This document shows, in pieces, positions 29,439 to 51,906 of a stretch of 64,000 nucleotides of DNA. The notes under the pieces are model-generated. The model was not told the origin of the DNA and did no database searches. It saw only the letters and a program-made list of their open reading frames with translations. Within the stretch, counting starts at the first letter, position 1; each line of letters opens with the position of its first letter. The DNA is taken from contig NZ_JASISP010000016.1 in the NCBI RefSeq assembly GCF_030063185.1, positions 1 through 64,000 of the forward strand, read 5' to 3'. The translations under genes were made by a program, and so were the position numbers. The DNA is from Arthrobacter sp. H35-D1. GTDB taxonomy: Bacteria > Actinomycetota > Actinomycetes > Actinomycetales > Micrococcaceae.

Positions 29439-30833
29439 CTAGTACGGGACGCGAAATATTTCCTGCTGGACGTCCGGACCGGCGGATTCGGGCAGCACCA
29501 GCTTCTTCAAGAATCCCGTGTCGCCATTCGCCAGTGCCCAGCGCAGGAGTTCCGCACGCATCCCCTCCAACTCGGGGGCGTACCGGGCTTCCACAGCCAG
29601 ATTCCGCTGCTCGCCCGGGTCGGCGGCAAGATCGTGCAGCTGTTCGCGGTGCCTTCCCCAGGAATACACCGTGTATTTCCATTGCCCCGCGATGATGGCA
29701 CGGCCCGCCGTTCCTGTACCCGGCATGGCGGCGGCGTCGGCAAACACCGTCTCCACCACGACCGGCTCTTCCGACGGATTCAGCACGGACCCCGCAGCCA
29801 AGCCTTCCGGGGCCGGAATCCCGGCTAGTTCGCACAGGGTCGGCAACAGTCCCAGCACGGCGGGCACGGGTCGCTCCTCCACTTCCGCAGCCTGCCCCGG
29901 CACGTGGACAAGGAATGGCACGCGGATGCACTCCTGGTACAGGGCGGTCTTTTGGTTCCATGCGTGGGAGGCGTCGCCGTCGCCGTGGTCGCTGACAAGT
30001 ACGACGGCGGTGCTCTCCAAATCGATCTCGTCCAGCAACTGGCCCATGCGCTTGTCGACGCGTTCCACGAGTGCGGAGTACGTGTGCCGGTAGTGGCGCC
30101 AGTCCTCCGGGGTATAGGAATTGCTGCCGTAGACCCTCGCCGCGAAGGCGCGCTCTGCGCCCAAGGCGTCGGGGGCAAAGGGTGCCGCCGTGAAGTTCGC
30201 TGGCAGGGGAGGGGTGTCTGCGAGGTCCGCGGCCGGCACCTTGCCGTAGGGCATGGCCTGGCCCCGGGCGTATTCACAAATGGTGTGGGGGTCGTCGAAG
30301 GAGGCGACCAGGAAGAAGGGGCGTTCGCCGTCGTTCCCGGCGCTGCCAGCGGGCCCGGTGCTGGTTGCCTTCGCGGTGCTGCCCACGTGACTGGCACGGT
30401 TCGCAAGCCACTGGTGGCACGCTTGCACCAATCCTTCGTCGCCGAAGGGATGGATCGCGGAGAAGCCGTCCGCGTCGGTGGCACTGGCCCGCAGGGCATG
30501 CCATTTGCCCGCATAGGCACAGTCGTAACCGGCGGCGCTGAACCAGTGTCCCAGCGATTCCGGGCCGTGACCGGGTTCTACGGCGGGAAAGGCGCCGGAG
30601 CTGGCGCCAAGACCTGCGTTGGACATGATGCCGAGCTGGTGTGGATATTTTCCCGTCACCATTGAGCTGCGGGCGGGCACACACAGTGGGAACGGCGTGT
30701 AGGCCTGGCTGAAATACGTGGAAGCCGCAACGAGGCGGTCAAGATTTGGCGTGTTGAAGTGGGCGTCGGTGGCCCGGCTGCGCTGCAGTGCGTGGGCGGC
30801 AAACTGATCTGCCATGACCAAGAGAATGTTCAT
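29439..30833 (-). CDS. Sulfatase 1 (formylglycine-dependent, S1 family), cytoplasmic
   Basis: A 464-residue sulfate-ester hydrolase. The metal-binding N-terminus is NILLVMADQF and the active-site cysteine C51 lies in PLCVPARSSMVTG, the CxPxR motif that is oxidised to formylglycine. GKWHALRA and VLVSDHGDGDASH supply further active-site and metal residues. There is no signal peptide. AAGGAG seven bases upstream fixes the start. It is the last gene of a five-gene unit with a sugar ABC importer and sulfatase 2, so its substrate is probably a sulfated sugar brought in by that importer. Confidence 0.92.
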   Translation of the reverse strand: MNILLVMADQFAAHALQRSRATDAHFNTPNLDRLVAASTYFSQAYTPFPLCVPARSSMVTGKYPHQLGIMSNAGLGASSGAFPAVEPGHGPESLGHWFSAAGYDCAYAGKWHALRASATDADGFSAIHPFGDEGLVQACHQWLANRASHVGSTAKATSTGPAGSAGNDGERPFFLVASFDDPHTICEYARGQAMPYGKVPAADLADTPPLPANFTAAPFAPDALGAERAFAARVYGSNSYTPEDWRHYRHTYSALVERVDKRMGQLLDEIDLESTAVVLVSDHGDGDASHAWNQKTALYQECIRVPFLVHVPGQAAEVEERPVPAVLGLLPTLCELAGIPAPEGLAAGSVLNPSEEPVVVETVFADAAAMPGTGTAGRAIIAGQWKYTVYSWGRHREQLHDLAADPGEQRNLAVEARYAPELEGMRAELLRWALANGDTGFLKKLVLPESAGPDVQQEIFRVPY

Positions 30834-30843
30834 GGTGTCTCCT

Positions 30844-32274
30844 TCATGCTGGCCCAGCCAATTCCTTCAGGGCATCTGCCCCGGTCCACTGTTGTCCGGC
30901 GGCGGCAAGTGCGGTTTCCAACGTTTTGGCGTGCTCGCGCACCAGCGCCGGATCCGTGATGTTGTGCAGTTCATAGGGATCCGCCACCAGGTCGTAAAGC
31001 TCGGTTGTCAGGCCGCCTGCAGGCTGGAATCGGGCGATGAACTTCGTGCTGCGTGATCTGATGCCGCGGATGTCCACATCGTCCGCATCGCGTGGGTAGT
31101 AAAAGTACAAGGCCGACTCCCCGGCTCCTGTGGGGGTGCCGGGCTCTCCCCGAAGCAAAGGCGCCAGGTCACGGCCCTGCATCTGGGCCGGAATGCCGGC
31201 CGAGAAGCCGAGCAACCCCAAAAGGGTTGGGGCGATGTCCACACTGGAGAGCACGGTGGTGGCAGCGGCTTCAGTGGACAATGCTCCCGGGCCGCGCATC
31301 ACAAAGGGGATGCGCATGGACTCTTCGTAGGGCACATTTTTGTAGAGCAGCCCGTGGCTGCCCATCTGTTGCCCATGGTCGGAGGTGAAAATGACAAGGG
31401 TGTCCTCGGCCAGGCCGAGATCGTCGAGCGCGGCCAGTAGCCGCCCCACTTGGGCGTCGATGGCGTTGACGGCGGCGTAGTACAGCGGGGCGATGGCGGC
31501 AGCGTCCCGGCCCGTGTCAGAATCCACGTCCACGTTGGGCCGGTTGAGCAGCTCGGCGGGGGACAACCCGGCATAGCTGGTGTCATACCCCTCCGGGAGT
31601 TGGTCGAAGGGCTGGTGCGGCGGGTTCCAGGAAACCGCCAGAGCAAACGGCGCACCACCGGAAGTTGCGCCGGAACCGCCGGAGGCTGCGCCGGCAGCCC
31701 GGCGGAGGAAGTCCAGGGCCACGTCCGTTTCATGCGCGGCTGACCAACCTTGAACGTCCACCCGTTCATGCCGTTCGGCGTTCCCGGTCCAATAATGGGG
31801 GGAGAGGTGCTCATCGGAGCACCCGTAGGAATACCAAAAATCAAAGCCGTGGCGCCGGTCAAGGGGGGAGTAGGCATCCCAGTAGCGCCTGTCTTCCAAG
31901 GGTCCGGTGCCGTAGATCGCATCCGCCGGAACAGGTGCCTCGAGGTGCCACTTGCCAATGTAGCCGGTTCTGTATCCTACGTCCCTCAACACGGCAGCCC
32001 ATGACGGGGCGTCGTGGTGCAGCCCAACACCCCAGGCGGCGGTTTCTGAGTTCACGTTGTGGGTGACTCCATTGGAGACAGGGTACTGCCCGCTCATCAT
32101 CATGGCCCTGTGCGGGCTGCACACGGGATAGTTACTGACAGCGTTGGCCAAGGACACGCCGTCGGACGCCAGGGCATCCAAAAAGGGGGTGGAAACGGCA
32201 TCGCCGCCCGGCTCCAGGCACATGGCCCGGAACTGGTCGGCGACGACAAACAACAAATTGGGATTGGTCCGCAT
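30844..32274 (-). CDS. Sulfatase 2 (formylglycine-dependent, S1 family), cytoplasmic
   Basis: A 476-residue sulfatase. It begins NPNLLFVVADQFRAM and has C52 in PVCSPHRAMMMSGQYP (CxPxR). YIGKWHLEAP and IFTSDHGQQMGSHG match the conserved family segments. It lacks a signal peptide. It lies seven bases after the permease gene and ten bases before sulfatase 1, so all are co-transcribed. Sequence differs clearly from the other three sulfatases here, implying another sulfate position. Confidence 0.92.
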   Translation of the reverse strand: MRTNPNLLFVVADQFRAMCLEPGGDAVSTPFLDALASDGVSLANAVSNYPVCSPHRAMMMSGQYPVSNGVTHNVNSETAAWGVGLHHDAPSWAAVLRDVGYRTGYIGKWHLEAPVPADAIYGTGPLEDRRYWDAYSPLDRRHGFDFWYSYGCSDEHLSPHYWTGNAERHERVDVQGWSAAHETDVALDFLRRAAGAASGGSGATSGGAPFALAVSWNPPHQPFDQLPEGYDTSYAGLSPAELLNRPNVDVDSDTGRDAAAIAPLYYAAVNAIDAQVGRLLAALDDLGLAEDTLVIFTSDHGQQMGSHGLLYKNVPYEESMRIPFVMRGPGALSTEAAATTVLSSVDIAPTLLGLLGFSAGIPAQMQGRDLAPLLRGEPGTPTGAGESALYFYYPRDADDVDIRGIRSRSTKFIARFQPAGGLTTELYDLVADPYELHNITDPALVREHAKTLETALAAAGQQWTGADALKELAGPA

Positions 32275-32281
32275 GGGTGCT

Positions 32282-33205
32282 CTACTTGCCCATTCCCAAG
32301 GTCAGGCCCTCCGTGAGTCGGCGCCCGAGCCAAATGTAGATGACCAGCATGGGCAGGATCACGATGCATAGGCCGGCGAACAGTCCGCCCCAGTCGGCAC
32401 CGGAGTAGGTCTGCTGCTGCACGAAGGAGATCAAGGCTACCGGCAGTGTGTACTTTTCGGTGCTCTGGAGCAGGGTCAGCGCCAGCAGGGTTTCATTCCA
32501 GCTCCCAACCACCAGCAGCACAAAGGCGGTGAGGATGCCGCCTTTGGCCAGGGGCAGTGTGACCTGGATAAAGGTGCGCAGGGCGGATGCGCCGTCGAGT
32601 GCAGCCGCTTCCTCCATTTCAAGAGGGAGACTGCGGAAGAAGGCCGTCAACAGGAAAACGGTGAACGGCAGCGACAAACCGATGTAGACCAAGTTCAAGC
32701 CAATCAAACTGTTGGTCAGGTGCACCTTGTCCAGCATGACAAAGAGCGGGATCAAGATGACCTGGGCTGGGATGCCCAGTCCAAGAATGAAGTACAGGCT
32801 CAGACCATCGGTGAGTCGGTTCTCCACCCGGCTGAGGTAGTAGGCGGCAGGTGCGGCAACGGCGACGCACACGAACGAGGACACTGCCGTGGTCAGAACA
32901 CTGTTAACCGTGGCCAAGGCGAAACCGCTGACGTTCCAGGCCGTGGCGAAGTTGTCGAAGTTGAACGACGTTGGCAAGCCCCATGGGCTTTCCAAGATTG
33001 CATGGGTGTCGCGGAAGGCCTGCAGCACCGTCCAGACGAGCATGGCGATGAATAGCACCACCACCGCCCACAGAATAAAGACTCCGATGCTGCGGACCCA
33101 GTTGTGATCGGCCTGCAGGGCGGGACTGACGCCGCCACGGTTTCTTTTGCGACGGACCGGCGGTGGAGCAGCTTTCTTGGACGGGGAAGGGATAAGGGTT
33201 GTCAT
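32282..33205 (-). CDS. Sugar ABC transporter permease, MalG type
   Basis: A 307-residue inner-membrane permease with six helices. The EAA loop that contacts the ATPase reads MEEAAALDGASALRTFIQVT followed by LPLAKGG. The positively charged N-terminus fits a cytoplasmic start. AAGGAA before the ATG supports the start. It pairs with the MalF-type permease ten bases upstream. No ATPase gene is present in the operon; many actinobacterial sugar importers share one MsiK-like ATPase encoded elsewhere. Confidence 0.93.
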   Translation of the reverse strand: MTTLIPSPSKKAAPPPVRRKRNRGGVSPALQADHNWVRSIGVFILWAVVVLFIAMLVWTVLQAFRDTHAILESPWGLPTSFNFDNFATAWNVSGFALATVNSVLTTAVSSFVCVAVAAPAAYYLSRVENRLTDGLSLYFILGLGIPAQVILIPLFVMLDKVHLTNSLIGLNLVYIGLSLPFTVFLLTAFFRSLPLEMEEAAALDGASALRTFIQVTLPLAKGGILTAFVLLVVGSWNETLLALTLLQSTEKYTLPVALISFVQQQTYSGADWGGLFAGLCIVILPMLVIYIWLGRRLTEGLTLGMGK

Positions 33206-33214
33206 GAGGATTCC

Positions 33215-34180
33215 TTAGAACTCAATGGCGTCACGGCGCATGGCACGGCGCAGGAGCACCACCAGTACGGTAACCAAGGCCAAAGAAATGATGGCTGATG
33301 CTGTGGCGGCACCATAGGCCGGGGTGGACATGCCGGAGAATGCGGTGACGTAGGTGTACACGGCCACGGACCAGGTTTGGGTGGGTGGCAGGCCTGCACC
33401 GCTACTGCCGCCAAAGACCCAGATGATTTCGAAGATCTTCACTGAAGAGATAGTCCACAGCACGGCACAAGTGCCGAACACGTCCCAAGTTAGCGGCAGA
33501 ATCACGTACCGCAGGCGCTGGAAGGCTGTTGCACCGGCAAGGGCGCAGTCTTCATAGAAGTACGGCGGAATCCGGTCCACACCGGCCATGATGATGGTGG
33601 TGAAGTAGCCCGTGGTGGTCAGCACCATGGTGGCCATGATCAGCGGAAAGATATTGTCCTGGGCCAGCCAAGCCGGCGGTTCCGTGACGCCCAGAGGCTT
33701 GAGCAGGCTGTTGACCATGCCCCCCGGGTTGAAGATGAAGCCGGCCAGGATGCCAAAGACAAGGGCATTGATCAGGTGAGGGAAGAAGATGACGTTGCGG
33801 GCGATCTTCTTTGCAGCCATGTCCCGAAGAACCAGCGTCATGGCAAAGGCCAGGATGAAGATTGCCGCACCCACCACGAACAACAGGAGCAGCGTGTTTC
33901 CGAAGGACTTCAGGAACAACGGGTCTTGGAAGACTTTAATGTAGTTCTTGATACCAACGAAGGTCATGGGGCCGGAACCGGCCCATTCGTTGAGGCTGAT
34001 CCAAACCGCCGCTATCGTGGGGACGATGAACAACACGGTGTAGAAGAGAAAAGCCGGTCCGACGAACGGTACCAGAAGCTTGCGGCGCTGGCGTTCAATG
34101 CTGCTGCCGCCCCGGCCCTGCCCGGGCTTGAGAGCCGGAGCAGGGTTGCGACGGGTGCGCTTGAGAGTAGAGGCGGACAT
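33215..34180 (-). CDS. Sugar ABC transporter permease, MalF type
   Basis: A 321-residue permease with six to seven helices. It includes WISLNEWAGSGPMTFVGIKN, typical of the MalF/UgpA group, and the EAA-like loop EDCALAGATAFQRLRYVILP. Its ATG overlaps the binding-protein stop by one base (TAATG). With the MalG-type partner it forms the channel for the oligosaccharide bound by the lipoprotein encoded upstream. Confidence 0.93.
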   Translation of the reverse strand: MSASTLKRTRRNPAPALKPGQGRGGSSIERQRRKLLVPFVGPAFLFYTVLFIVPTIAAVWISLNEWAGSGPMTFVGIKNYIKVFQDPLFLKSFGNTLLLLFVVGAAIFILAFAMTLVLRDMAAKKIARNVIFFPHLINALVFGILAGFIFNPGGMVNSLLKPLGVTEPPAWLAQDNIFPLIMATMVLTTTGYFTTIIMAGVDRIPPYFYEDCALAGATAFQRLRYVILPLTWDVFGTCAVLWTISSVKIFEIIWVFGGSSGAGLPPTQTWSVAVYTYVTAFSGMSTPAYGAATASAIISLALVTVLVVLLRRAMRRDAIEF

Positions 34181-35487
34181 TAGCCCTGCGCCTTCCAGTA
34201 AGCGATGGTCTCCGACTTCATTTTGGAGACAAACTCGCCAGCGTCAATCTTTCCCAAGAACAACTGATCGTCGGTCGGGTTGAAGTTCTTCTCCAAGTAA
34301 CCCGGAGCGGTGACACCGTCGTTGCCCAAGTAGATCTCCTCGGCGCCGTCAATGTTCTTCTTGAGTGCGGCGAGCTCCGGTGAAATGGCGGCATCAGCGC
34401 GGACGGGAAGGACCTTGGCTACGGTGCCCATGGCATCCTGGTTCTTCTTGGTCAACAGGAACGCAGCCAACTCCTGGGCGATGGCAGGGTTCTTTGCCTT
34501 CTTGGGAATGGCGAAGCCAGTGAAATCAGTGCGTGCCATGCTGGGCTGGCCGGCTACGGCCGGGTACGGGAAGGATGCATACTTGAATCCAGGCGAGGCA
34601 TAGGTGCCAGTCTCCGTGGGGATCCAGGAGCCGTTGAAGAGCAGATCTGCCCCGCCGGTGGCCCAAGCCTGCTGCTGGGCAGGCCACTTGCTGGCGTTAT
34701 AACCATCGATGAGGTAGTTGCCGTCGACGAGCTGCTGCACCGTTTTGGCTGCGGCCAGCACTGCGGGGGAGTCCCAGCCAGCGCCGGTCTTGTCCGTGAC
34801 AATCTTGTTGAACGCACCGGGTCCCTCGCTGTGGACCAGTGCGCTGACGAACCAGTAGGCGCTGTAGCCGGAGATGTCACCGTCTGCAGCAATTGGTGTC
34901 TGCCCGGCGGCCTTTTCCTTGTCAAGGAGACTTATGAAGTCGTCCCAGGATGCCGGCGGGTTCGTCACCAGATCCGGGTTCTTTTCGGCGTCGAACCAGA
35001 TGCCATCCGAAGTGAGGCTGTAAGGCACCATCCACGGTTGGCCGTCTTTGCCCTTGATGTTGCTCACGGCAGCGAACTTGGCGGGGATGAGCTCAGAGAG
35101 TTTCTTGCCGTCGATCTCGGTGTTGTAGGCATCCGTCATGGGGAGCGCCTGGCCGGTGCTGCCCAGTGCGATGTCAAGGTTGGCGTTGGAACCGTCAATG
35201 ATGTCCGGGACATTGTTGGTGTTCAGTGCCGGAATGATCTTTTTCGTGTTGGTGCGGCCCTGCCACTGCACGTCAACCTTGTTGCCGGTCTCCTTTTCGA
35301 AGTCGGCGATGGCGCTTGCGAGTACCTTTTGCTGTGCCTCGCCGACCTTCCACATGGACCAGTACGTCACTGTACCGCCGTCCTTGGCACCGGCATCGTT
35401 GCCGCCACCACCGCCGCAGGCTGTCAGGGCCATGGATGCGCCGGCCAGGACGGCCAGCGTTCGTACGATTCGGGATTTAGTACTCAT
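34180..35487 (-). CDS. Extracellular sugar-binding lipoprotein of the ABC importer
   Basis: A 435-residue solute-binding protein of the carbohydrate type (family 1). A lipoprotein signal ends in MALTACGGGGG, where the cysteine would be lipid-modified. The mature part shows TVTYWSMWKVGEAQQKVLAS, DFEKETGNKVDVQWQG and WDDFISLLDKEKAAGQTPIA, typical of oligosaccharide binders. The ATG at 35487 with GAGGTG eight bases upstream is preferred to 35538. It is the first gene of the operon and is divergent from the GntR/LacI-type regulator. Sulfated oligosaccharides from the two PL8 lyases are the inferred ligand. Confidence 0.93.
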   Translation of the reverse strand: MSTKSRIVRTLAVLAGASMALTACGGGGGNDAGAKDGGTVTYWSMWKVGEAQQKVLASAIADFEKETGNKVDVQWQGRTNTKKIIPALNTNNVPDIIDGSNANLDIALGSTGQALPMTDAYNTEIDGKKLSELIPAKFAAVSNIKGKDGQPWMVPYSLTSDGIWFDAEKNPDLVTNPPASWDDFISLLDKEKAAGQTPIAADGDISGYSAYWFVSALVHSEGPGAFNKIVTDKTGAGWDSPAVLAAAKTVQQLVDGNYLIDGYNASKWPAQQQAWATGGADLLFNGSWIPTETGTYASPGFKYASFPYPAVAGQPSMARTDFTGFAIPKKAKNPAIAQELAAFLLTKKNQDAMGTVAKVLPVRADAAISPELAALKKNIDGAEEIYLGNDGVTAPGYLEKNFNPTDDQLFLGKIDAGEFVSKMKSETIAYWKAQG

Positions 35488-35575
35488 AAGTAGACACCTC
35501 GTGAAGTTGTTGTGCCGTAGGTCACGACTCAGTGACATGACTCAAACAGTTCGCGAAGATAGGAATCAAGGTGTA

Positions 35576-35595
35576 TTTTCAAACTACTTGGAAAA
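35576..35595. promoter_or_regulatory. Palindromic candidate operator between importer and regulator
   Basis: TTTTC (35576-35580) and GAAAA (35591-35595) with inner AA/TT matches make a 20-base site symmetrical at 16 positions. It lies in the 260-base divergent region and could serve the adjacent regulator. The rest of this region is AT-rich and non-coding. Confidence 0.45.
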
Positions 35596-35749
35596 CGAGC
35601 GAAAATTTCAATGGTCAACCTCATGGGGAGACGAGGTGCAAGCGCGGCGGGCGCGACAAAATCGGAGCGCGGTACCTTTCAATTACACCTTTATTCATTA
35701 CTTATTCATCTGTCATGCTCGTCACCGACGGGCTAGCAGAAAGGGCGCC

Positions 35750-36889
35750 GTGATCAGCCGAGCAAAATCCGGGACGGTGCGCGACACCGACTCCCGCGAA
35801 CTAAAATTTCAGGCCTTGGCCGATGAGCTTCGTCGTGGCATTTTGGCCGGCACCTGGGCGGCCGGGGCTAAATTGCCCACCGAAGCCCAGCTTTCGGCCG
35901 AGACCGGAGTGTCGCTGACTACTGTCAGGCGGGCCTTCGACGAGCTTGTCCAGGAAGGGATCGTGGCTCGCCGGCAAGGGGCGGGAAGCTTTGTCTCCGA
36001 ACGCCCGGTGGCGCGGCGGCGTACCCGGCTGAGGGTGGGCGTGCTGCTGCCGGACACGCAACTGTATTATCCGCGGGTCCTCAAGGGCATCGAAGAGACA
36101 CTCTCGGCCCAGAATGTGGGCCTGCAATTGTCCACGTACAACTATGAGTCGGAGCGCGAGGATGCAAGCATCGACTTCCTCATTGATTCCGGTGTGGATG
36201 GGCTGATTTTGGTGCCCACCCTGAGCGGGATCGCTGATCCGCAGCAGCGGGTGCGGGATCTGGCGGCCCTGAATTTGCCAGTGGTCCTGTTGGAGCGCAG
36301 CTTGACGGACATGGGGCCCGGGGACCGCACGGAGCACGTGTGTTCGGACCACCAAGGCGGCGCGTACGACGCCGTCCGTCACCTTGTCGGCCTGGGCCAC
36401 CGCAGGGTGGGACTGCTGATACGAAGCCATACCCCCACTGAGCCTGCCATTGTGGCCGGCTATGAACGCTGCGCCAAGGATTTGGGTTTTGCGCCATTGG
36501 TGCTTCCCGCGCAGAAGGAAGACTGGGAGTCGGGGGCCGCAGAGCAGCTGTTGGCCCAGCTGCGTGATGCCGGTATCACCGCCGCCTTGGTTTTCGGCGA
36601 CAGGGAAGCGACATTTTTGGAGGCTGCCGCACGTCGGGCCGGGGTCAGGATCCCGGAGGACCTGGCCCTGGTGTCCTACGACGACGAATTGGCAGATCTC
36701 GCCGAAGTTCCCTTGACCGCCGTGGCCCCTGCCAAACACAGGATGGGGAAAATGGCAGCGGAAATCCTGCTCCGGCGTCTGGCGGAGGGCGACGATTGCC
36801 CCATCCACCAAGTGCGGCTCCGTCCGCGGCTGGTCATAAGAGAATCTTGCGGGGCCAAGAGGCAACCCGCGCAGCACGAAGAGGAATGA
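35750..36889 (+). CDS. Transcriptional regulator: GntR DNA-binding head on a LacI-type sugar-sensing body
   Basis: A 379-residue chimeric regulator of the AraR kind. Residues about 15-85 are a GntR winged helix (LPTEAQLSAETGVSLTTVRR, then GIVARRQGAGSFVSE). Residues about 95-365 are a periplasmic-binding-like sugar sensor (RLRVGVLLPDTQLYYPRVLK, GVDGLILVP, HRRVGLLI, DLALVSYDDELAD). The GTG at 35750 with AAGGG upstream gives the domain-matched start; the frame is open further upstream but without family match. It is divergent from the importer operon and is followed seven bases later by the dehydrogenase gene. It is the natural sensor for the glycan-use genes. Confidence 0.88.
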   Translation: MISRAKSGTVRDTDSRELKFQALADELRRGILAGTWAAGAKLPTEAQLSAETGVSLTTVRRAFDELVQEGIVARRQGAGSFVSERPVARRRTRLRVGVLLPDTQLYYPRVLKGIEETLSAQNVGLQLSTYNYESEREDASIDFLIDSGVDGLILVPTLSGIADPQQRVRDLAALNLPVVLLERSLTDMGPGDRTEHVCSDHQGGAYDAVRHLVGLGHRRVGLLIRSHTPTEPAIVAGYERCAKDLGFAPLVLPAQKEDWESGAAEQLLAQLRDAGITAALVFGDREATFLEAAARRAGVRIPEDLALVSYDDELADLAEVPLTAVAPAKHRMGKMAAEILLRRLAEGDDCPIHQVRLRPRLVIRESCGAKRQPAQHEEE

Positions 36890-42185: not shown

Positions 42186-42382
42186 TGCAGAAGTCCTTTG
42201 CTTGTTCGCAGCCGGCCGAGATGCCGGATGCGTGGGTTGCTTCGCAGTCAAGAGCACCCATGGGAAAGGAATAAAGCACTACTTCCCAACACCGTCCTGA
42301 TGGACAAAGTTCTGGACACTATCACCGTAGTTTGCGCGAAAGGGGGCACGCAAAACGTCATCTTCGGATGGAACACGAATTG

Positions 42383-45400: not shown

Positions 45401-45656
45401 CGAGCTGGTCCTGTCAGTGACGGACCCGGACCTGCGGTTCTACAACGGCAAGGACAAGTCCGACCCGGCCCAGTCGCCGTTCGGAGTGCCGTGGCGCGGA
45501 TCGCCCAGCCAGGGCAGCAAGATCACGGTTGAACTGGAAGGTCGATGGAAGTCCGGTACTGATGGTGTGAAGGCGAACGTCGGCCACAACACCACCCAGA
45601 TCACAGTGAACTGCGCGGATGGCCTGCCGACCGAATTGCGCCTGACCAAGGCCTAG
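42462..45656 (+). CDS. Tat-exported chondroitinase-ABC-type PL8 lyase
   Basis: A 1064-residue broad-specificity chondroitin lyase. It begins with a twin-arginine signal (ISRRGLLTVAAAGAV). Residues about 50-230 form an N-terminal sugar-binding jelly roll, then comes a helical toroid, then a beta-rich C-terminal half. The catalytic pair is in FHHMGHYPAY (about residues 514-521), matching HEGNYPGY of Proteus chondroitinase ABC I, as I recall it. NEYGRYITYG, GWDWNRFPGTTAIQLP and the tail AVIDHGNKPKRGTYEYSMVV are further shared segments. AGGAAGAGG six bases before the ATG sets the start, discarding 95 upstream residues. It would attack chondroitin and dermatan sulfates. Confidence 0.92.
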   Translation: MTRPPMEISRRGLLTVAAAGAVTIAVVPLSPANADTLAMQKTSPSTTPTPTTEPPTTLAELEANAMALKPPVFLLETTIPSQFKTNDKSPLSIVSDVNHTGNSSLRWDYKSRSTLSVKAPLGIVPPSGASGGNGADIGYDVNTLAFWVYQSKASSGKLRIEAGRGQRTDAWCEMNLNFTGWRTAWIRYQDMKGKARADMDTLRFVAPSSAGTLHLDQLIVNRPLRSNFPTPDRQVPFVNPGVHTDPNQHWQDLLWFSEQAAKPLPMPTPTAAQLADLAAVKEAFNATVRKQVAVTAVSVDVLVAKIDSLGVPQAGVFGGGKPINGYQTSIYPPVIAADINRLAPTIGLRPFTDQMYAVASAYDSTADAALQGRLADLYVRLLDYFYDQGWTDGSVQGTIHHLGYQNRGFYNSVWLMRDLLASRGRLVDVRATLHWMVGLGKFRVGTGDANLFYNGIFDIINTTLMGLLGSVLIADGETAQVANLSLLQNWFNNAIKPSPGIQGGFKPDFATFHHMGHYPAYARDGLNGGSPALAVLAGTGFAISQESHERWNQALLAMRFYSNKTNFPLSLSNRHPTGTDSLSLNCYQTMTLAGSPDGKHELDPVIGAAFLRLLPAKPFSAQLAVAKQLAAAGVVAEPDPSGCQVMNHAALVSHRRDNWLVSVRGHNRYLWSTEMYGGSNEYGRYITYGHVQVMSGGDPVSNTDSGFVQPGWDWNRFPGTTAIQLPFEQLNTTINPLGEEMLLTDQRLGGGGTIGGKNGAFLMSLHESAVYDGSFHARKSVFMFDNRVVALGSGIENHDRKHSTQTTLFQCHLANTSVPTQDSRVGAIASVPYNNTEKLHHDPVWLVDPQNVGYYVPGGQQLVVSRAVQTAPDQGAKTEGTLPYATAVIDHGNKPKRGTYEYSMVVGATAESMASFTADMGQRDKAAYKVLRHDDTAHVVQDRATGITAHAVFEAAKKLTDGVVKAVDTPSVVLVQPDGAELVLSVTDPDLRFYNGKDKSDPAQSPFGVPWRGSPSQGSKITVELEGRWKSGTDGVKANVGHNTTQITVNCADGLPTELRLTKA

Positions 45657-45820
45657 CACGTCCGGCACATCAGGATGGGGCCGGCAGCTGGATGCTGCCG
45701 GCCACATCCGTGCAAAAAATCGATATAGCCACACAAAATAGTCAGCATTGGACCCAGATGAACATCATGAAACCTCCAGGCAACAGCGAGACGTGGCAGC
45801 GGCCATCTGAGGGTAATGTC

Positions 45821-47590
45821 GTGGGTATGCCTTCGACACTCCCCGCAAAATCGTCCAAGTCTGCCTTTGTTGCACCAACCGCGGATGAGGGCGTCCATGG
45901 CCCGTCGGTCGTGCGACAGACCCCCGAAGACATCGCCCGGCGGGAGCTGTGGTCGGAATCAAGTTTCGGGGTTTTTGTGCATTGGGGCGTATCCGCCATC
46001 CTCGGTGGCCTGTGGCATGGAAAACATGTCGAAGGGCTGGCTGAATGGATCCAATTTAGGGCCAAAATCCCTCTGGCAGAGTATGCCGAGCTGGCCAAGG
46101 ACTTCAACCCGGCCGATCTCAATGCACGGGACTGGGTGCGCATGGCCGCAGAAGCAGGGGCCAAGTATTTTGTATACACAGCCAAGCATCATGACGGATT
46201 CGCCATGTATCACTCGCAGGCTTCCGCGTACAACGTCGTCGATGCGACGCCGTTTCAGCGCGACCCGTTGGCCGAAATAGCACAAGCATGCGTCGAGTAC
46301 GGCATCATGCTGGGGGTCTATTATTCCCAAACCATAGACTGGGAAGATCCTGATGCGGTGGGCCCCAGCTGCAACAGCTGGGACTTCGACACCGAAAAGG
46401 GAGATTTTCACAGTTACTGGCGTCGCAAGGCGGCCCCGCAGCTGCGTGAAATCCTCAGCAACTACGGCGACATCGGACTGATGTGGTTTGACATGCCCAG
46501 TGGCATCCCGGCCGAGTGCGCCCAGGAAGCATTTAGCCTGGTGCGGGAACTGCAGCCAGGCGCCGTCATCAACAGCAGGCTTGGCGGAGGGGTTGACGCC
46601 GACTACAACTCCATGGATGACAACTACTTCAACAACTTCCTGCCTGTGAATGCCTGGGAAACGGCTGCCACCACGAATGACAGCTGGGGATTCTCCAAGC
46701 TGGCAGCGGGCTGGAAGCCGGTTGCCAGCCTCTGCGAAACTCTGGCGTACACGGTCAGCCGCGGCGGAAACCTTCTGCTTAACGCCGGGCCCGACGCCAG
46801 CGGTGCGATCCCAGAAAAAGTTCAGGAGCAGTTCGCGGGCATCGGAACCTGGATGCAGCGGGCTGTATCAGCCATCCGTGGCGCCGGGCCATCGCCCTTT
46901 GCCGCCAGCTTTGACTGGGGCTACGTGACTGCCGGCGAATCGTCGGTCTATCTGCACGTTGCCGATCTCGGGAAGCAGGAACTGTCCCTGCGCGGCATTG
47001 CGAGCGCACCTGACTCCGTGCGTGATTTGGGCACGGGCACCCTGCTGCCTTTCACCCTGAGCGAAGCCGACGGCAGGGGGCCGCTTCTTACTCTGGAACT
47101 CGCTGCGCCCACCGATGAACTGCCGCGAACGATTGAGCTGGCCTTCACCGAGTTGCCGAGAGTCGATCAGAGCATTGTGCAGGTCCCGGGATCACCCCTT
47201 CGACTCGATGTGTGGAACGCGGAAACCGGCGCTGGCGAAGCGCTGCGGTGGAACTTCACTATGGCGACCCCCGGCGAGTACCGTGTGGTGCTTTTGAGTA
47301 AGGAGACGTTCGGCAACTTCAACCCACAGTGGTGGGCCGATGGCTTGACGGGGACGCTGGAAACGGAAGCCGGGAGTACGCCGTTTACGCTGCGCAGGGA
47401 CGGCGAAGAGCTTTACCCGATCCTGCACTACTGGAAGGTGGTTCGCAGCGAGATTGGAGTGCTTCACGTGTCCAGGACCGGCCAGCATAAACTGAATATC
47501 GAAGATTTGCCGGTTGTTGACTCGAAATGGGACCGCGGCGGAGTGAACATGATCGCGCTGAGGCTTGAGCCAGTCGCATCCGAGGACTAG
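45821..47590 (+). CDS. GH29 alpha-L-fucosidase, cytoplasmic
   Basis: A 589-residue glycoside hydrolase. The barrel begins at ARRELWSESSFGVFVHWG; the motifs YFVYTAKHHDGFAMYHS and DIGLMWFDMPSG (nucleophile aspartate) are typical of GH29. A beta-sandwich domain occupies the last third. There is no signal peptide, so it acts on imported oligosaccharides. The start is uncertain: the GTG at 45821 has GAGGG seven bases upstream, while ATGs at 45827, 45758 and a frame open to 45692 are possible. It follows the chondroitinase gene in the same direction. Fucose is not part of ordinary chondroitin, which hints at a fucosylated substrate. Confidence 0.9.
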   Translation: MGMPSTLPAKSSKSAFVAPTADEGVHGPSVVRQTPEDIARRELWSESSFGVFVHWGVSAILGGLWHGKHVEGLAEWIQFRAKIPLAEYAELAKDFNPADLNARDWVRMAAEAGAKYFVYTAKHHDGFAMYHSQASAYNVVDATPFQRDPLAEIAQACVEYGIMLGVYYSQTIDWEDPDAVGPSCNSWDFDTEKGDFHSYWRRKAAPQLREILSNYGDIGLMWFDMPSGIPAECAQEAFSLVRELQPGAVINSRLGGGVDADYNSMDDNYFNNFLPVNAWETAATTNDSWGFSKLAAGWKPVASLCETLAYTVSRGGNLLLNAGPDASGAIPEKVQEQFAGIGTWMQRAVSAIRGAGPSPFAASFDWGYVTAGESSVYLHVADLGKQELSLRGIASAPDSVRDLGTGTLLPFTLSEADGRGPLLTLELAAPTDELPRTIELAFTELPRVDQSIVQVPGSPLRLDVWNAETGAGEALRWNFTMATPGEYRVVLLSKETFGNFNPQWWADGLTGTLETEAGSTPFTLRRDGEELYPILHYWKVVRSEIGVLHVSRTGQHKLNIEDLPVVDSKWDRGGVNMIALRLEPVASED

Positions 47591-47638: not shown

Positions 47639-49093
47639 CTATACACCATCCCAATTGGGTCCGGTGAACGCCCCCAGCGGATCTGGCTGCCCGGCGGGGG
47701 AGCGCAGCGGGCTGTGCTGGCCGGCGCCGGCGACCGGCAGCGCGGCACCATCAAATTCGGGCACTCCGTGCTGCGAGAACCAGCCAGCCATACGCGAACG
47801 CAAGCCAACAAGCACGGGGTGGGCGCCGCCGTCGTCCATCAGGTTGTGCCGTTCCCCGGGATCTGCAACCAAGTCATACAACTCGTGCGGGCCGTGCGGG
47901 TGGCGGTGGACGTACTTGTGGCTGCGGGTGCGGATCATGCGCACGGGACCGTATTCGTCATACACCACCACGGCGTTTTCAGCCCGGCCGACAGCCTCGG
48001 CTGAGTCGTCAGTCGCCTGTAACACCGGGGCAAAGGAGGCGCCCGGGCCGGTCTCGAACGGGGCCGGTTCCAGGCCTGCCAGTTCCAGGATGGTGGCGGG
48101 AACGTCATAGGCGGAGAACAGTTCCTCGCGCACCTGGCCGGCAGCGATGCGGCCGGGCCAGTGGAAGATGGCGGGGACCTTGACGGAGGAGTCGTACATG
48201 TTTTGCGGGAACGTGCCGTTGCCCTTCCCCCACACGCCGTGATGGCCTGCGTTGAAACCGTTGTCGCTGCTGAAGATGACCAGTGTGTTCTCCGCGATGC
48301 CCAGCTTTTCAAGGTGCTCCAGGAGCGAGCCTATGGCGGCGTCCATGGCACTGACGGCGGCAAAGTAACCCACCAAGGCGGCCCGCACATCCGGTTCGCC
48401 GCCAATGGCGACGCCGTCCACTGTGGGCTGCCACGGGTGCGGTTCCTCCTGCGGGCAGCTGTCAAAGGCGCAGTCCGCGTACAGGTCTTCAAACTCCGGG
48501 GGGTGCTGGCCCTTCCACGGCTTGTGCGGGGCCGTGTAGTTGACCGCGAGGAAAAACGGCTCCTCGCGGGTGGCTTCCCGGTCAAGGAAGGCGTGCGCAT
48601 CGTCGGTGATGATGTCGGTCAGGTAATCGGTGACTTCCTCCCGCCTGCCATTGCGATACATGGTGGCACCCAAGTAGGGGCTGCCGCCGCCTTCGAGCCC
48701 ATACCAGTGCACAAATCCCTTCCTCGGCGCATCGTTGGCGCCAAGATGCCATTTTCCGGACAGGCCCATGCGGTAGCCGTGATCGGCGAGGACGTCTGTG
48801 AAGATGGCCTGACCGGCCAGGTAGTCCGGGGCCTGGGCTCCCACTTCGACCCCGGTGAGGTAGTCGTGCACGCCGTGTCGGGAGGGAATTTGCCCTGTCA
48901 TGAGGCTTGCCCGTGCGGGGGAGCAGACGGGGGAGACGCAAAAGAAGTTCTCCAACCGGGTGCCGTCTGCTGCAAGTGCGTCAAGGACGGGCGTGTGGAT
49001 TTCCTCGTTGCCTGCGCAGCCCAGCGCCCAGGGGCCTTGATCGTCGCTGAGGATGAAGACGATGTTTGGTGCCGCGGGGGACGAGCTGGCCAT
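47639..49093 (-). CDS. Sulfatase 3 (formylglycine-dependent, S1 family), cytoplasmic
   Basis: A 484-residue sulfatase. Metal-binding residues are in NIVFILSDDQG, and the formylglycine cysteine C57 is in PVCSPARASLMTGQIPSRHG (CxPxR). GLSGKWHLGAND and VIFSSDNGFNAGHHG are conserved family blocks. It lacks a signal peptide. AAGGAG upstream of the ATG at 49093 is clear. It converges on the fucosidase gene and is divergent from the TIM-barrel isomerase. Its closer likeness to broad GAG/arylsulfatase groups is an impression only. Confidence 0.92.
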   Translation of the reverse strand: MASSSPAAPNIVFILSDDQGPWALGCAGNEEIHTPVLDALAADGTRLENFFCVSPVCSPARASLMTGQIPSRHGVHDYLTGVEVGAQAPDYLAGQAIFTDVLADHGYRMGLSGKWHLGANDAPRKGFVHWYGLEGGGSPYLGATMYRNGRREEVTDYLTDIITDDAHAFLDREATREEPFFLAVNYTAPHKPWKGQHPPEFEDLYADCAFDSCPQEEPHPWQPTVDGVAIGGEPDVRAALVGYFAAVSAMDAAIGSLLEHLEKLGIAENTLVIFSSDNGFNAGHHGVWGKGNGTFPQNMYDSSVKVPAIFHWPGRIAAGQVREELFSAYDVPATILELAGLEPAPFETGPGASFAPVLQATDDSAEAVGRAENAVVVYDEYGPVRMIRTRSHKYVHRHPHGPHELYDLVADPGERHNLMDDGGAHPVLVGLRSRMAGWFSQHGVPEFDGAALPVAGAGQHSPLRSPAGQPDPLGAFTGPNWDGV

Positions 49094-49194
49094 TGCTGCT
49101 CCTTAAAGGGACGGGATGCACTAGAAATACCACGGAACCGGGAGAGGAATAAAGGTGTAGAGCGGATGCTGCCGATCCTCTTGCGGGCATTGTT

Positions 49195-49208
49195 GGAAAG
49201 CGTTTTCC
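49195..49208. promoter_or_regulatory. LacI-type operator before the TIM-barrel gene
   Basis: GGAAAGCGTTTTCC is a 14-base near-palindrome (12 of 14 positions symmetric) centred on CG, the form typical of LacI-family operators. It lies 51 bases before the ATG at 49259, in the region shared with sulfatase 3. Confidence 0.55.
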
Positions 49209-49258
49209 GGCATAGTGTTGATACTAGAGACTTCGATCACCCCGTTGAAAGGCCCACC

Positions 49259-50251
49259 ATGCCCTTGGCATTTTCCACCCTCGGCTGCCCCGGTGCTTCC
49301 CTGGCACAGGTCATCGGCATTGCCCGCGAAGCAGGTGCCACTGGCCTGGAGTTGCGCGCCGCAGCCGGTGAATTTATTTACCCAGGCATGGACGCCGCAG
49401 CATGCTCCGCAGTGGCCGGCGAGCTGGCCGACGCCGGACTTGAAGTGCTTGCGCTGGCGAGCTACGTCCGTGTGTGTGCTGCCAGCGACGGTACTGTCGC
49501 CGTGAGTGTCGCCGACGGTGCCGCCCCTGGTGCGGCCGACGGTGCGGCCGACGGTGCGGCCGTGTATGTCGCCGGCGGTGCCGCCCCTGGTGCGGGGTAT
49601 CCGGCCGATGCCCAGGCCGGATACCCAGCCGAGGATCCGGTGCTGGCGGAGCTGCTGGCCGCCTTCGACCTTGCCGCCGCACTCTCCACCGGCAACACGG
49701 GGCAGGGTGCACAAGTGCGGGTGTTTCCCGGGGCGGGGCTGGAACCGTGCGGGGTGGGGGAGGAGCCGTCGCCCGCCTTGGCTGCCGCCGACCTTCGTGC
49801 CGCACGCAGGCTCAACGCCGCTGCCGGGCATGCCCGCGACCTCGGGGTGGGCATCCTGCTGGAAACCCACGACTCGCACCCGCGCGCCTCCGATGTGGCC
49901 CGCATCCTGGCCCATGTTGAGGCGGATGCGCCGGTGAAGGTCATTTGGGACCTGATGCACCCGTGGCGCCACGATGAGACGCCCGAGCGGACGGCCGCCC
50001 TGCTGACGGAATCGCTGGCCTACGCCCAGTACAAGGACGGCGTGCGGACACCGGACACCCACGACGTGGTGCTCACGCTGCCGGGGGAGGGCCAGCTGCC
50101 TTTGCTGCGGATGAACGCCCTCGCAGCCGAAATTGCCGCCATGCAAGGCATTTTCGATCCCTGGGTTTCCCTTGAATGGGAACGGGCCTGGCACCCGGAG
50201 CTGCCGCCTGTTGGCCAGGCCCTTGCATCGCTGAAAGCACTCCTTGCTTGA
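49259..50251 (+). CDS. Xylose-isomerase-like TIM-barrel (AP endonuclease family 2) sugar isomerase/epimerase
   Basis: A 330-residue protein. It starts MPLAFSTLGCPGASLAQVIG and shows ATGLELRAAAGEF, GVGILLETHDSHPRASD and VKVIWDLMHPWRHDETPE, the metal-binding strands of this fold. It would isomerise a ketose or inositol-like product of glycan breakdown. Residues about 80-125 are an unusual Ala/Gly/Asp-rich insertion encoded by DNA repeats, placed where most relatives have a short loop. The ATG at 49259 has GAAAGG upstream; the open frame extends back antisense to sulfatase 3 but is not coding there. A long hairpin follows. Confidence 0.85.
   Translation: MPLAFSTLGCPGASLAQVIGIAREAGATGLELRAAAGEFIYPGMDAAACSAVAGELADAGLEVLALASYVRVCAASDGTVAVSVADGAAPGAADGAADGAAVYVAGGAAPGAGYPADAQAGYPAEDPVLAELLAAFDLAAALSTGNTGQGAQVRVFPGAGLEPCGVGEEPSPALAAADLRAARRLNAAAGHARDLGVGILLETHDSHPRASDVARILAHVEADAPVKVIWDLMHPWRHDETPERTAALLTESLAYAQYKDGVRTPDTHDVVLTLPGEGQLPLLRMNALAAEIAAMQGIFDPWVSLEWERAWHPELPPVGQALASLKALLA
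49507..49596 (+). repeat. Direct repeats inside the TIM-barrel gene
   Basis: A unit reading GTCGCCGACGGTGCCGCCCC then TGGTGCGG occurs at about 49507 and, with one change, at about 49569. Between them the 12-mer GCCGACGGTGCG is repeated in tandem. They encode the low-complexity insert of the protein. Confidence 0.75.
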
Positions 50252-50267
50252 CGAATATTTGACGAAG

Positions 50268-50326
50268 GACACCGTTATGGTCTTTCGCGCCCGGTAATAC
50301 CGGCAGCGAAAGACCATAACGGTGTC
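50268..50326 (+). terminator. Perfect 21-bp inverted repeat, probable terminator
   Basis: GACACCGTTATGGTCTTTCGC (50268-50288) is exactly mirrored at 50306-50326. The 17-base loop itself contains the palindrome CCGGTA/TACCGG. It starts 17 bases after the TIM-barrel stop and 51 bases before sulfatase 4. There is no T run. Confidence 0.75.
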
Positions 50327-50376
50327 ATTGACCGATAGCCCCGGCACACAGCCCCCTGACAATGAGAAGGATCTTC

Positions 50377-51906
50377 ATGCCCGCCACTGACACCACCGGC
50401 CAGCCCACCACGCGCCAGCCCACCACTGACACCACCGGCCAGCCCACCACGCGCCGGCCCAACATCATGGTCATCGTCTCCGACGACCACGGCTACGCCG
50501 ACCGGTCAATCTTGGGTGTGCAGGACGATGTGAGCACCCCCGCAATGGACCGCCTGGCCGCGCAAGGGGTGTCCTATTCCAACGCTTATGTCACGGCACC
50601 CATTTGTTCCCCGTCGCGCGCGGGACTGGCCGCCGGCTGCTACCAGCAGCGGTGGGGTGCGCGCTGGTTCACGGACTCGGAGATTTGCCCGCCCCAGGTG
50701 CCCACGATTGCCGAATTGTTGCGCGGGGAAGGCTACGCCACCGGCTACTTCGGGAAAGTCCACTACGGCACCGAGCACAGCGGAGACCGCGGCACGCCCC
50801 CGCAGCACGGCTACGACGAGTCGTTCTATGGGCTGGCCGGCGAATCCATGGGCCGGCTCAACTACATGCACCACTCCGAAGAGTCGGTGCAGGACTACGG
50901 TGAGGCTGCCTTCCCCATGGCCGTCCAGCCGCTGTGGAACGGGGAAGAGCCGCAGGAACTGGAAGGCTTCCTCACGGATGCCATCGGCGAACGGACCCGG
51001 CAGTTCGTCGCCGACCATGCAGACACCCCCTTCCTCGCAACCGTTGCGTTCAATGCGGTCCACAACTTTTGCTGGCAGCTGCCGGCGGAAGAGCTGGAGA
51101 AGCGCGGACTGCCCGCCTATGGCGACTGGAATCCGGGAGCCGGGGAATACATTGACTGGTACGACGGCGCCATCAGCCCCCACCTGGAAAACGGCCGTGC
51201 CTACTATTTGGCGCAGCTGGAATTGATGGATGCACAGATCGGGCTCATCCTGGACCAGCTGGATGAGTTGGGCTTGGCCGAGGACACCCTTGTCATCTAC
51301 CTGACGGACAATGGCGGCTCCACCTGCAACTACGGTGTCAACTTGCCTTTGCGAGGCACCAAATACACCTTGTGGGAAGGCGGGGTCAGGGTCCCGTTTC
51401 TGCTCCGCTGGCCGGGCCACGTCACTGCCGGCGAAACCCGCGCCGGTCTCACCAGCGCCATGGACATTGTGCCCACCGCGCTCGCAGCCGCCGGAGCGGA
51501 CCCCGCCGTGCATGCCCACTGCGACGGGCTCGACCTGCTGGCCGCAGCTCCTGCGACCCCGGATGCTGCCACGGAAACGGGCGCGGACGGCACACCAACT
51601 ACTGCCTCCGGCGGCGGACACGAAGTCCTGCACTGGGATTGCGGCTGGCAATGGTCTGTGCGCAAGGGCGACTGGAAGCTGCACTGGGCGGAGCCGGACT
51701 CGCCGGTGGCCCAGGCCATCAGGGACGTTGAGCATGCTGAGCCCGGCAGCGGCTACTTCTTGTGCAACTTGGCCGACGACCCGGCAGAGACCACCAACCT
51801 CCACGGAACTGAGCCAATCGTGGCGGCCGAGCTCACGGCACTGCATGATGCGTGGGCGGCCAGCATCGCTGGCGGCCGCTCATTGTCAGCGGCCGGCCGC
51901 GACTGA
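50377..51906 (+). CDS. Sulfatase 4 (formylglycine-dependent, S1 family), cytoplasmic
   Basis: A 509-residue sulfatase. The enzyme proper starts at RRPNIMVIVSDDHGYADRS. C77 is in APICSPSRAGLAAG (CxPxR), and TGYFGKVHYG and VIYLTDNGGSTCN are further conserved blocks. The first 27 residues are a duplicated TDTTGQPTTR(R/Q)P unit encoded by a 39-base tandem repeat, unlike a signal peptide. The ATG at 50377 has AAGGA six bases upstream; an ATG at 50362 is weaker. It follows the TIM-barrel gene in the same direction. Confidence 0.92.
   Translation: MPATDTTGQPTTRQPTTDTTGQPTTRRPNIMVIVSDDHGYADRSILGVQDDVSTPAMDRLAAQGVSYSNAYVTAPICSPSRAGLAAGCYQQRWGARWFTDSEICPPQVPTIAELLRGEGYATGYFGKVHYGTEHSGDRGTPPQHGYDESFYGLAGESMGRLNYMHHSEESVQDYGEAAFPMAVQPLWNGEEPQELEGFLTDAIGERTRQFVADHADTPFLATVAFNAVHNFCWQLPAEELEKRGLPAYGDWNPGAGEYIDWYDGAISPHLENGRAYYLAQLELMDAQIGLILDQLDELGLAEDTLVIYLTDNGGSTCNYGVNLPLRGTKYTLWEGGVRVPFLLRWPGHVTAGETRAGLTSAMDIVPTALAAAGADPAVHAHCDGLDLLAAAPATPDAATETGADGTPTTASGGGHEVLHWDCGWQWSVRKGDWKLHWAEPDSPVAQAIRDVEHAEPGSGYFLCNLADDPAETTNLHGTEPIVAAELTALHDAWAASIAGGRSLSAAGRD
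50384..50455 (+). repeat. Tandem repeat at the start of sulfatase 4
   Basis: A 33-base sequence (starting CCACTGACACCACCGGCC) is found identically at 50384-50416 and 50423-50455, period 39 bases. It keeps the reading frame and adds 13 residues per copy. Confidence 0.85.

Follow-up and report, generated by a model that had tools for sequence, protein, structure and literature searches.

The 64,000-nucleotide stretch of the Arthrobacter sp. H35-D1 genome analysed here (positions 1 to 64,000 of contig NZ_JASISP010000016.1, hereafter the window) carries between positions 29439 and 51906 a gene cluster which we read, at about even odds (roughly 0.5), as a chondroitin sulfate/dermatan sulfate (CS/DS) utilisation locus whose unsaturated disaccharide is opened by a TIM-barrel protein of the AP_endonuc_2 family (TIM) together with a Gfo/Idh/MocA dehydrogenase (MocA), without a GH88 enzyme. 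In the scheme that we propose, two exported PL8 lyases would degrade the polymer to 4,5-unsaturated disaccharides, an ABC importer that depends on a lipoprotein would bring these into the cell, and cytosolic S1 sulfatases would remove the 2-O, 4-O and 6-O sulfates. TIM would open the unsaturated uronide by metal-dependent hydration and MocA would reduce the keto sugar released by TIM (the order which we favour), the two proteins thereby taking over work done elsewhere by GH88, KduI and KduD, while a DUF2264 protein would dehydrate saturated glucuronate ends into the same route and a GntR/LacI regulator would act through the sequence GGAATMAAGGNGTA. Comparison supports the assignment of the genes to their families, the core conserved among carriers, the absence of matches to GH88, KduI and KduD, the active site of DUF2264 and the motif that the promoters share; we infer the substrates of the enzymes, those of TIM and MocA above all, the order of the reactions and the binding of the regulator to the motif.

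GH88 is commonly placed as the step that follows a glycosaminoglycan (GAG) lyase, and the main puzzle of the locus, one absent from the first-pass annotation of this DNA, is that the genome has no GH88/GH105 match. PF07470, the unsaturated-uronyl hydrolase family which we take to cover GH105 besides GH88, had no match in the window genome (4.46 Mb in 86 contigs, listed as 100% complete, with the window in contig C7; C, G and L numbers are our own handles for contigs, genomes and loci), and the same search found matches in 3 of 14 control genomes. Among 245 genomes of the family, PF07470 matched in 6 and PL8 (PF02278) in 26, with both in none (genus genomes G245-G251 were left out of the PF07470 search); this overlap of 0 against 0.6 expected (p = 1) is what chance would give with so few GH88 genomes and therefore does not amount to mutual exclusion, the point being that the lyases occur without GH88. 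KduI (PF04962) had no match in the window genome, nor in 11 of the 17 genus genomes that carry the locus, and the PF04962 matches in the other 6 may be IolB. KduD (TIGR01832) was above cut-off in none of the 23 genus genomes, the window genome scoring below it, and a KDPG aldolase is present.

The order of the steps is constrained by the chondroitin cluster of the marine strain Arthrobacter MAT3885, the source of ChoA1 and SulA1 (PMC10972148); according to the accessible text of that paper, SulA1 desulfates the GalNAc4S monosaccharide only and is inactive on GalNAc6S and on the unsaturated disaccharide Delta-di4S. Sulfatase C of the window is probably the counterpart of SulA1, as it agrees in length (484 aa) and at the six reported positions C57, D17, D18, H190, D277 and N278, through which, in place of the full sequence, the two were compared. 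Because SulA1 is inactive on the unsaturated disaccharide, the uronyl unit must be removed before that desulfation. The first-pass annotation had envisaged cleavage outside the cell, ABC import and desulfation inside, and this plan agrees with the exported lyases, the importer and the leaderless sulfatases, yet it is incomplete, since SulA1 needs removal of the uronyl unit first. Sulfatase C also illustrates that naming by nearest structure can mislead, because its nearest solved relative is an N-acetylglucosamine-6-sulfatase (E 5.7e-45) and yet it agrees with SulA1. By 16S, A. cryoconiti is the nearest relative of MAT3885, and the core of the locus is found on a contig of that species (L133).

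The locus was followed through 23 genomes of the genus, a carrier being a genome in which the solute-binding protein (SBP), permease 1 and the regulator stand together. By this definition 17 are carriers (G000, the window genome, with G052, G076, G096, G113, G128, G157, G170, G024, G192, G202, G221, G231, G182, G247, G248 and G251), and the clustering is not due to chance, because related genomes show these genes grouped likewise, flanked by hk-rr and mt-xpb. MocA is found in all 17 carriers and TIM is in place in 16, the TIM of G231 lying elsewhere in its genome; DUF2264 is found in 9 and GH29 in 7, and the lyases vary. Besides the sulfatases, MocA and TIM are the only enzyme genes close to constant in carriers; sulfatases A and B of G248 and G251 fell outside the stretches examined, and sulfatases A and C were not seen at the G231 locus. 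PL8 had no match genome-wide in G076, G113, G157 and G182, and carriers without PL8 may live on disaccharides released by other organisms. The locus of G182 (L253) is decaying, its AC-type lyase and sulfatase B matching only in pieces, and in G024 (L088, 9694-14563) an open reading frame (ORF) at 12686-13828, by eye a transposase, splits the gene of the ABC-type lyase. Remnants of the locus lie at the site in G239, G245 and G246, where TIM is the last gene left or is left with sulfatase D (L249/L259 in G245, L252 in G246, L254 in G239); the hk-rr and mt-xpb flanks of G211 and G250 enclose none of the locus genes, and G249 was not resolved at the site. Related gene sets were found in three genomes of other genera (G098, G046 and G070).

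For relatives of TIM beyond the genus the best 80 of 363 were kept. In the searches of genomes no more than 10 candidates each were scored for TIM and no more than 5 for DUF2264, so that some relatives may be missed. Of these 80 loci, 79 bear Actinomycetota names and one is labelled Sporosarcina (L130), probably wrongly. A PL8, a heparinase-like lyase or a DUF2264 lies in the stretch at 39 of the 80, and 31 of those 39 also have MocA or a 2-hydroxyacid dehydrogenase; TIM lay inside its called gene cluster in 54 of the 80, so that the neighbour lists are incomplete, and some stretches were short. PL8 stands near TIM in Agromyces, Luteimicrobium, Streptomyces mangrovisoli and Actinospica, a heparinase-like lyase in Catenulispora, Amycolatopsis and an Arthrobacter plasmid (StoSoilB3) and near a distant TIM on an archaeal plasmid (Haloterrigena), and DUF2264 accompanied by a 2-hydroxyacid dehydrogenase in Nesterenkonia, Nocardiopsis and Saccharothrix. 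In Nesterenkonia alba (L162), whose genome has no GH88 match, the genes for the 2-hydroxyacid dehydrogenase, DUF2264 and TIM overlap (6973-7986, 7983-9992 and 9989-10789), and GH88 is likewise unmatched in 13 of the 19 genomes where DUF2264 lies close to TIM, their completeness not being stated. The Luteimicrobium PL8 locus (L165) has TIM and a 2-hydroxyacid dehydrogenase with no MocA match, and GH88 is elsewhere in that genome. That such a dehydrogenase stands where MocA was not found speaks for reduction of the released alpha-keto acid by the dehydrogenase partner, with the opening of the bond left to TIM, the order which we favour. We tentatively extend the proposal, at somewhat less than even odds, to branches of the TIM family as a new class of enzymes in Actinomycetota that remove unsaturated uronyl units, partnered by MocA or a 2-hydroxyacid dehydrogenase and acting after any enzyme that generates a 4,5-unsaturated uronide, be it PL8, a heparinase-like lyase or a DUF2264 dehydratase, which would constitute a GH88-free route through GAGs and other glucuronides.

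Some candidates and side observations belong to the same survey. A strict coupling of MocA with TIM was considered and is weakened by the 2-hydroxyacid dehydrogenases of other loci and by TIM standing alone in G245 and G246. MN05-02 and Pseudarthrobacter (L155) have a large secreted protein that had been called heparinase-like; Pfam found no heparinase domain in the MN05-02 copy and the protein was not counted. A Nonomuraea locus (H4/L112) came without any annotated features. A trio of MocA, DUF993 and a second TIM-barrel protein recurs near TIM in several Actinomycetota (L204, L162, L163, L147 and L173), and a 2-hydroxyacid dehydrogenase stands beside PL8 in further PL8 loci of G024 and G239 (L090 and L097).

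The AlphaFold model of TIM has a mean pLDDT of 89.8, with one loop below 50, and Foldseek places it among isomerases and epimerases, together with AsbF and a keto-glucal hydratase, at TM-scores of about 0.6, a mix that does not distinguish an isomerase from an eliminase. E202, H204, D231, Q257, K259 and E306 are invariant in an alignment of 55 rows (54 of 75 TIM loci plus the window protein, plasmid rows being left out; five odd-length translations were left out of the TIM tree), and this metal-site pattern does not separate eliminases from isomerases. The strongest rival, somewhat unlikely in our view, is a plain isomerase role, in which TIM only isomerises and MocA only reduces free 5-keto-4-deoxyuronate, as non-homologous replacements of KduI/DhuI and KduD/DhuD, and a hydrolase from a family not yet recognised, with its gene elsewhere in the genome, splits the unsaturated disaccharide. 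Sugar isomerases or epimerases make up most of the structural neighbours of TIM, the slots of KduI and KduD stand empty at the cut-offs used in the window genome (detection of KduI near the 80 TIM loci relied on one good query, the other being of 77 aa only), the replacement of MocA by a 2-hydroxyacid dehydrogenase in Luteimicrobium (L165) is what is expected of a reductase, and isomerase-reductase pairs for 5-keto-4-deoxyuronate are known to swap (PMC12838403, in the part accessible). What speaks against such a division of labour is that only MocA, TIM and the sulfatases are near constant among the enzyme genes of carriers, and that, in genomes without a GH88 match such as that of Nesterenkonia alba, none of the three overlapping genes would then break the glycosidic bond.

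MocA has as its nearest solved relatives 4,5-dihydroxyphthalate dehydrogenase and DgpA (E 5.7e-33 for the latter), with a further match to the glucuronide-3-dehydrogenase 8tdi (E 1.2e-21), and these relatives are in keeping with another chemistry, which we regard as improbable, in which oxidation of the unsaturated uronyl unit at its C3 hydroxyl by MocA is followed by elimination of GalNAc from C1 by TIM. Because the intermediate so formed would be isosteric with 3-dehydroshikimate, the reaction would yield comenate, an aromatic pyrone. The probable 3-dehydroshikimate dehydratase AsbF is the top profile match of TIM (E 1.4e-5) and sixth in its Foldseek ranking. The invariance of E202, H204, D231, Q257 and E306 fits as well, but ExH motifs are common in the TIM superfamily. 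AtOGE, a TIM-barrel 'sugar phosphate isomerase', has been shown to act as a beta-eliminase after C3 oxidation, as far as the accessible part of PMC10628242 goes. However, the 2-hydroxyacid dehydrogenases that stand in for MocA do not suit an oxidation at C3, and no gene for comenate breakdown was seen, no search having been aimed at one. Two other sources of the missing hydrolase were set aside. A GH109-type NAD-dependent glycosidase role for MocA would call for a GGHGG loop, which was not seen in the MocA alignment, residues 169-179 reading GGGAFINIGAH. GH29 has a substrate class that is also alpha-L, but as a general uronyl hydrolase it is present in too few carriers. The title of reference 31 in PMC12269599 names the GGHGG loop.

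The DUF2264 protein, listed in the first-pass annotation without a role, is by sequence and predicted fold a relative of glucuronate dehydratases. Over its N-terminal domain it resembles the beta-D-glucuronate dehydratase BcGDH both in sequence (E 2e-27) and in fold, the model matching 9o4u/9nwf. In the accessible part of PMC12269599, ten alanine mutants of BcGDH showed no activity, on a poor substrate, and the two GH154/DUF2264 members tested are dehydratases. The window protein keeps nine of these ten residues, and eight are kept in all 26 rows of our alignment (residues were mapped through our own alignments, E74 and R78 via 8oi4 and spacing only). The tenth, Trp178 of BcGDH, corresponds to His161 of the window protein; all 7 rows that come from GAG loci have His at this position, and the remaining 19 have Trp. 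We therefore propose an accessory job for this protein, which would dehydrate saturated glucuronate ends and whose absence from 8 of the 17 carrier loci fits such a role. It is very improbable that DUF2264 itself removes the unsaturated uronyl unit as a GH88-like hydratase, leaving TIM and MocA to act downstream: its presence in the remaining carrier loci, the His peculiar to the GAG-locus clade and the match of the two-domain model to polysaccharide lyases over both domains, at a low TM-score, would agree with such an activity, but eight carrier loci lack the gene, the G024 genome has no match at E 1e-20, and the dehydratase residues are kept. A second DUF2264 gene, 47% identical, lies in the window genome (G000:C8:31036-32307), and no matches to the locus partners were found within the 20 kb examined around it.

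All families named in the first-pass annotation, namely two PL8 lyases, four S1 sulfatases, GH29, DUF2264, MocA, the TIM barrel, the importer and the GntR/LacI regulator, were recovered within 29439-51906 by Pfam scans of the window. The assignment to sulfated GAGs made there is also supported, and the nearest solved relatives, mostly CS/DS enzymes, are read as narrowing the target to chondroitin/dermatan sulfate. The AC-type lyase has chondroitin AC lyase 1rw9 as its best solved relative (E 1.7e-251; the sister entry 1rwa is titled Arthrobacter aurescens), the ABC-type lyase has chondroitinase 2q1f (E 2.5e-147), followed by the ABC lyase I 1hn0, and both carry Lyase_8 domains plus the N-terminal domain of their type; both are predicted to cleave chondroitin/dermatan sulfate. 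That the two different lyases are exported, as had been claimed, is upheld by the twin-arginine-like leaders SRRHIF and SRRGLL, from which motifs alone Tat export is predicted. The nearest solved relatives of sulfatase A are 3b5q (named a putative sulfatase, E 3.7e-36) and the 2-O GAG sulfatase 5g2t (E 4e-36), sulfatase B is nearest to the CS/DS 4-O-endosulfatase 6j66 (E 2.3e-94), and sulfatase D to the kappa-carrageenan 4S sulfatase 6prm (E 4e-52), with the GalNAc-6-sulfatase 7stt (E 2.2e-43) further down its list. All four have a Sulfatase domain with the C-x-P-x-R motif and, by eye, no leader in the first 30 residues; a formylglycine-generating enzyme (PF03781), relevant because S1 sulfatases of this kind need formylglycine, is encoded in all 23 genus genomes, that of the window included. 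Hyaluronan is possible as a further substrate, and heparin and xanthan are not supported by the nearest solved relatives. That the locus serves another polymer, be it fucosylated chondroitin, heparin or xanthan, strikes us as hardly credible: the GH29 gene, the carrageenan affinity of sulfatase D and the inclusion of xanthan and hyaluronate lyases in PL8, seen in a structure search with the AC-type lyase, lean that way, but the AC-type lyase reaches only about 1e-100 with xanthan lyase, sulfatase B matches a CS/DS sulfatase and GH29 is confined to 7 of 17 carriers.

Shared motifs at the promoters of the locus suggest one regulon, and the GntR/LacI regulator may bind the candidate operator GGAATMAAGGNGTA. 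Allowing up to two mismatches, the window has 6 matches against 0.97 expected, of which two, at 36177 and 52963, lie outside the promoters of the locus. With at most one mismatch there are 22 matches in 402 kb of PL8-type loci (18 within the 182 kb of loci of the genus from which the motif was derived and 4 across a further 220 kb of PL8-type loci) and none in 549 kb of controls. Discovery used 53 intergenic regions, some of them entered twice, and three of the four matches outside the genus (L047, L048 and L141) are in regions not among the 53, L047 and L048 being near-copies of each other. The form AAGGTGTA was tried as a motif and did not hold across orthologs; the wider form GGAATMAAGG did.

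Several observations weigh against the proposed opening of the disaccharide by TIM and MocA. The fold of TIM is as near to isomerases and epimerases as to dehydratases, so that a KduI-like role is fitted equally. At 41 of the 80 TIM loci no PL8, heparinase-like lyase or DUF2264 lies in the stretch, some stretches being short, and the neighbours differ at many of the Streptomyces relatives (GH3, peptidase S37 and DUF993), from which it follows that the TIM family is not of one function. Nor does TIM exclude GH88, as PF07470 matches 18 of 50 TIM genomes, 15 of them above cut-off, and TIM alone survives in the two decayed loci of G245 and G246, which reflects either the order of decay or a use of its own. 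TIM occurs in 31 of the 245 family genomes and overlaps with PL8 in 16 (3.3 expected) and with DUF2264 in 25 (4.4 expected); these counts speak for the proposal, but their Fisher values overstate significance because related genomes are not independent samples. Furthermore, TIM and GH88 are both missing from 10 of the 26 genomes with PL8 (G008, G019, G047, G063, G071, G086, G091, G097, G114 and G151), so that other routes exist, a result that speaks against TIM as the sole replacement, and the 18 operator matches within the genus come from the very loci that yielded the motif. In those ten genomes two PL8 loci were sampled (L098 and L099), and both include an ABC importer as well as a regulator.

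The features of the locus are collected in Table 1. Start sites of the AC-type lyase, the ABC-type lyase and TIM lie inside the longest ORFs, and no ATPase domain was found by Pfam among the importer genes scanned. Between TIM and sulfatase D (50268-50326) stands an inverted repeat with perfect 21-bp arms and a loop of 17 bases, which may have been inserted recently or may form an RNA hairpin; a 17-base core of the arm had no match at up to 3 mismatches in eight orthologous stretches, and the window has no further exact copy. Outside the locus, two c-di-AMP riboswitch aptamers (RF00379) lie about 1 kb apart at 60243-60460 and 61424-61627 (+).

Table 1. Genes and candidate operator copies of the locus, in window positions
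Feature	Position	Strand	Basis or remark
S1 sulfatase A, predicted cytosolic, probable uronyl 2-O-sulfatase	29439-30833	-	PF00884; CVPAR motif
S1 sulfatase B, predicted cytosolic, probable CS/DS 4-O-sulfatase	30844-32274	-	6j66 relative; CSPHR motif
ABC permease 2	32282-33205	-	PF00528
ABC permease 1	33215-34180	-	PF00528, 26.2 bits against a cut-off of 26.4; kept in orthologous loci
Solute-binding lipoprotein (SBP)	34180-35538	-	PF01547; lipobox LTAC
Two inverted GGAATMAAGGNGTA copies, between importer and regulator	35562-35697	+/-	35562 (+) exact; 35684 (-) one mismatch
GntR-N/LacI-C regulator	35750-36889	+	PF00392, PF13377; start codon chosen by hand
Gfo/Idh/MocA dehydrogenase (MocA)	36896-37903	+	PF01408
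DUF2264 (former GH154), two-domain, probable beta-D-glucuronate dehydratase	37900-39813	+	PF10022
Exported PL8, chondroitin AC lyase type	39810 to about 42185	-	Pfam; Tat-like leader
Degenerate GGAATMAAGGNGTA copy, lyase-lyase intergenic region	42268-42281	+	2 mismatches
Exported PL8, chondroitinase ABC type	about 42462-45656	+	PF09092/PF09093; Tat-like leader
GH29-family protein, variable accessory gene	45692-47590	+	PF01120; no leader seen by eye
S1 sulfatase C, probable SulA1 counterpart (GalNAc4S sulfatase)	47639-49093	-	484 aa; residue agreement
Exact GGAATMAAGGNGTA copy, upstream of TIM gene	49146-49159	+	
AP_endonuc_2 TIM-barrel protein (TIM), candidate unsaturated-uronyl-processing enzyme	49259-50251	+	PF01261; AlphaFold model
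S1 sulfatase D, putative exo 4S/6S type	50362-51906	+	S1 family; nearest solved structures

The first-pass annotation had presented such loci as little described in soil actinobacteria, which is less new than it seemed, as the lyase ChoA1 and one sulfatase, SulA1, of such a cluster are already in print (PMC10972148). What is new here is the GH88-free design and the candidate replacement by TIM and MocA; no paper on a GH88-free GAG route in Actinomycetota was found in the open-licence literature, most subscription journals being outside that search. The lyase-bearing genomes of one bacterial family are without GH88 (0 of 26 PL8 genomes among 245) while TIM and MocA are kept, and if these two do the job, this would be a new way to break a glycosidic bond, annotations as 'sugar phosphate isomerase/epimerase' would need correcting, and the DUF2264 dehydratases beside TIM in genomes with no GH88 match would be explained. 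The locus also offers enzymes for the processing of chondroitin and dermatan.

Among the closest known systems is the MAT3885 cluster (ChoA1, SulA1 and SulA2; PMC10972148), with which the locus shares a PL8 AC lyase adjoining a cytosolic S1 sulfatase of 484 aa, with the same catalytic and calcium positions in SulA1 and sulfatase C. The locus differs in its second, ABC-type lyase; the accessible text of that paper covers the lyase and the sulfatases, mentions unnamed sugar-metabolism genes and a hypothetical protein, and does not contain the words glucuronyl, isomerase, oxidoreductase or transporter. The chondroitin polysaccharide utilisation locus (PUL) PUL25 of B. caccae likewise combines a lyase with a GH154/DUF2264 dehydratase that primes saturated glucuronate ends, but has GH88, for which the window genome has no match, and the ABC-type importer and cytosolic sulfatases are features of the window locus (PMC12269599, as far as accessible). 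An ABC importer stands here in place of the SusC/SusD pair of Bacteroidetes-type PULs (no search for SusC/SusD was made). The GAG loci on haloarchaeal plasmids resemble it in having a PL8 lyase, GH154, a sulfatase and an ABC importer, but those of the isolates include GH88, according to the part of PMC13260240 that was accessible. The KduI-KduD and DhuI-DhuD clusters (PMC12838403, likewise in part) occupy the same metabolic slot after a polysaccharide lyase, whereas TIM and MocA belong to other families; in the window genome KduI and KduD were searched for with the outcome given above, and DhuI and DhuD were not searched for. The AtOGE and puerarin C-glycoside pathways also pair a sugar C3 dehydrogenase with a TIM-barrel 'sugar phosphate isomerase/epimerase', to which the TIM of the window is related at superfamily level only; in the accessible part of PMC10628242 the substrates shown are 3-keto-glucosides, whereas the window TIM sits with enzymes that generate uronides.

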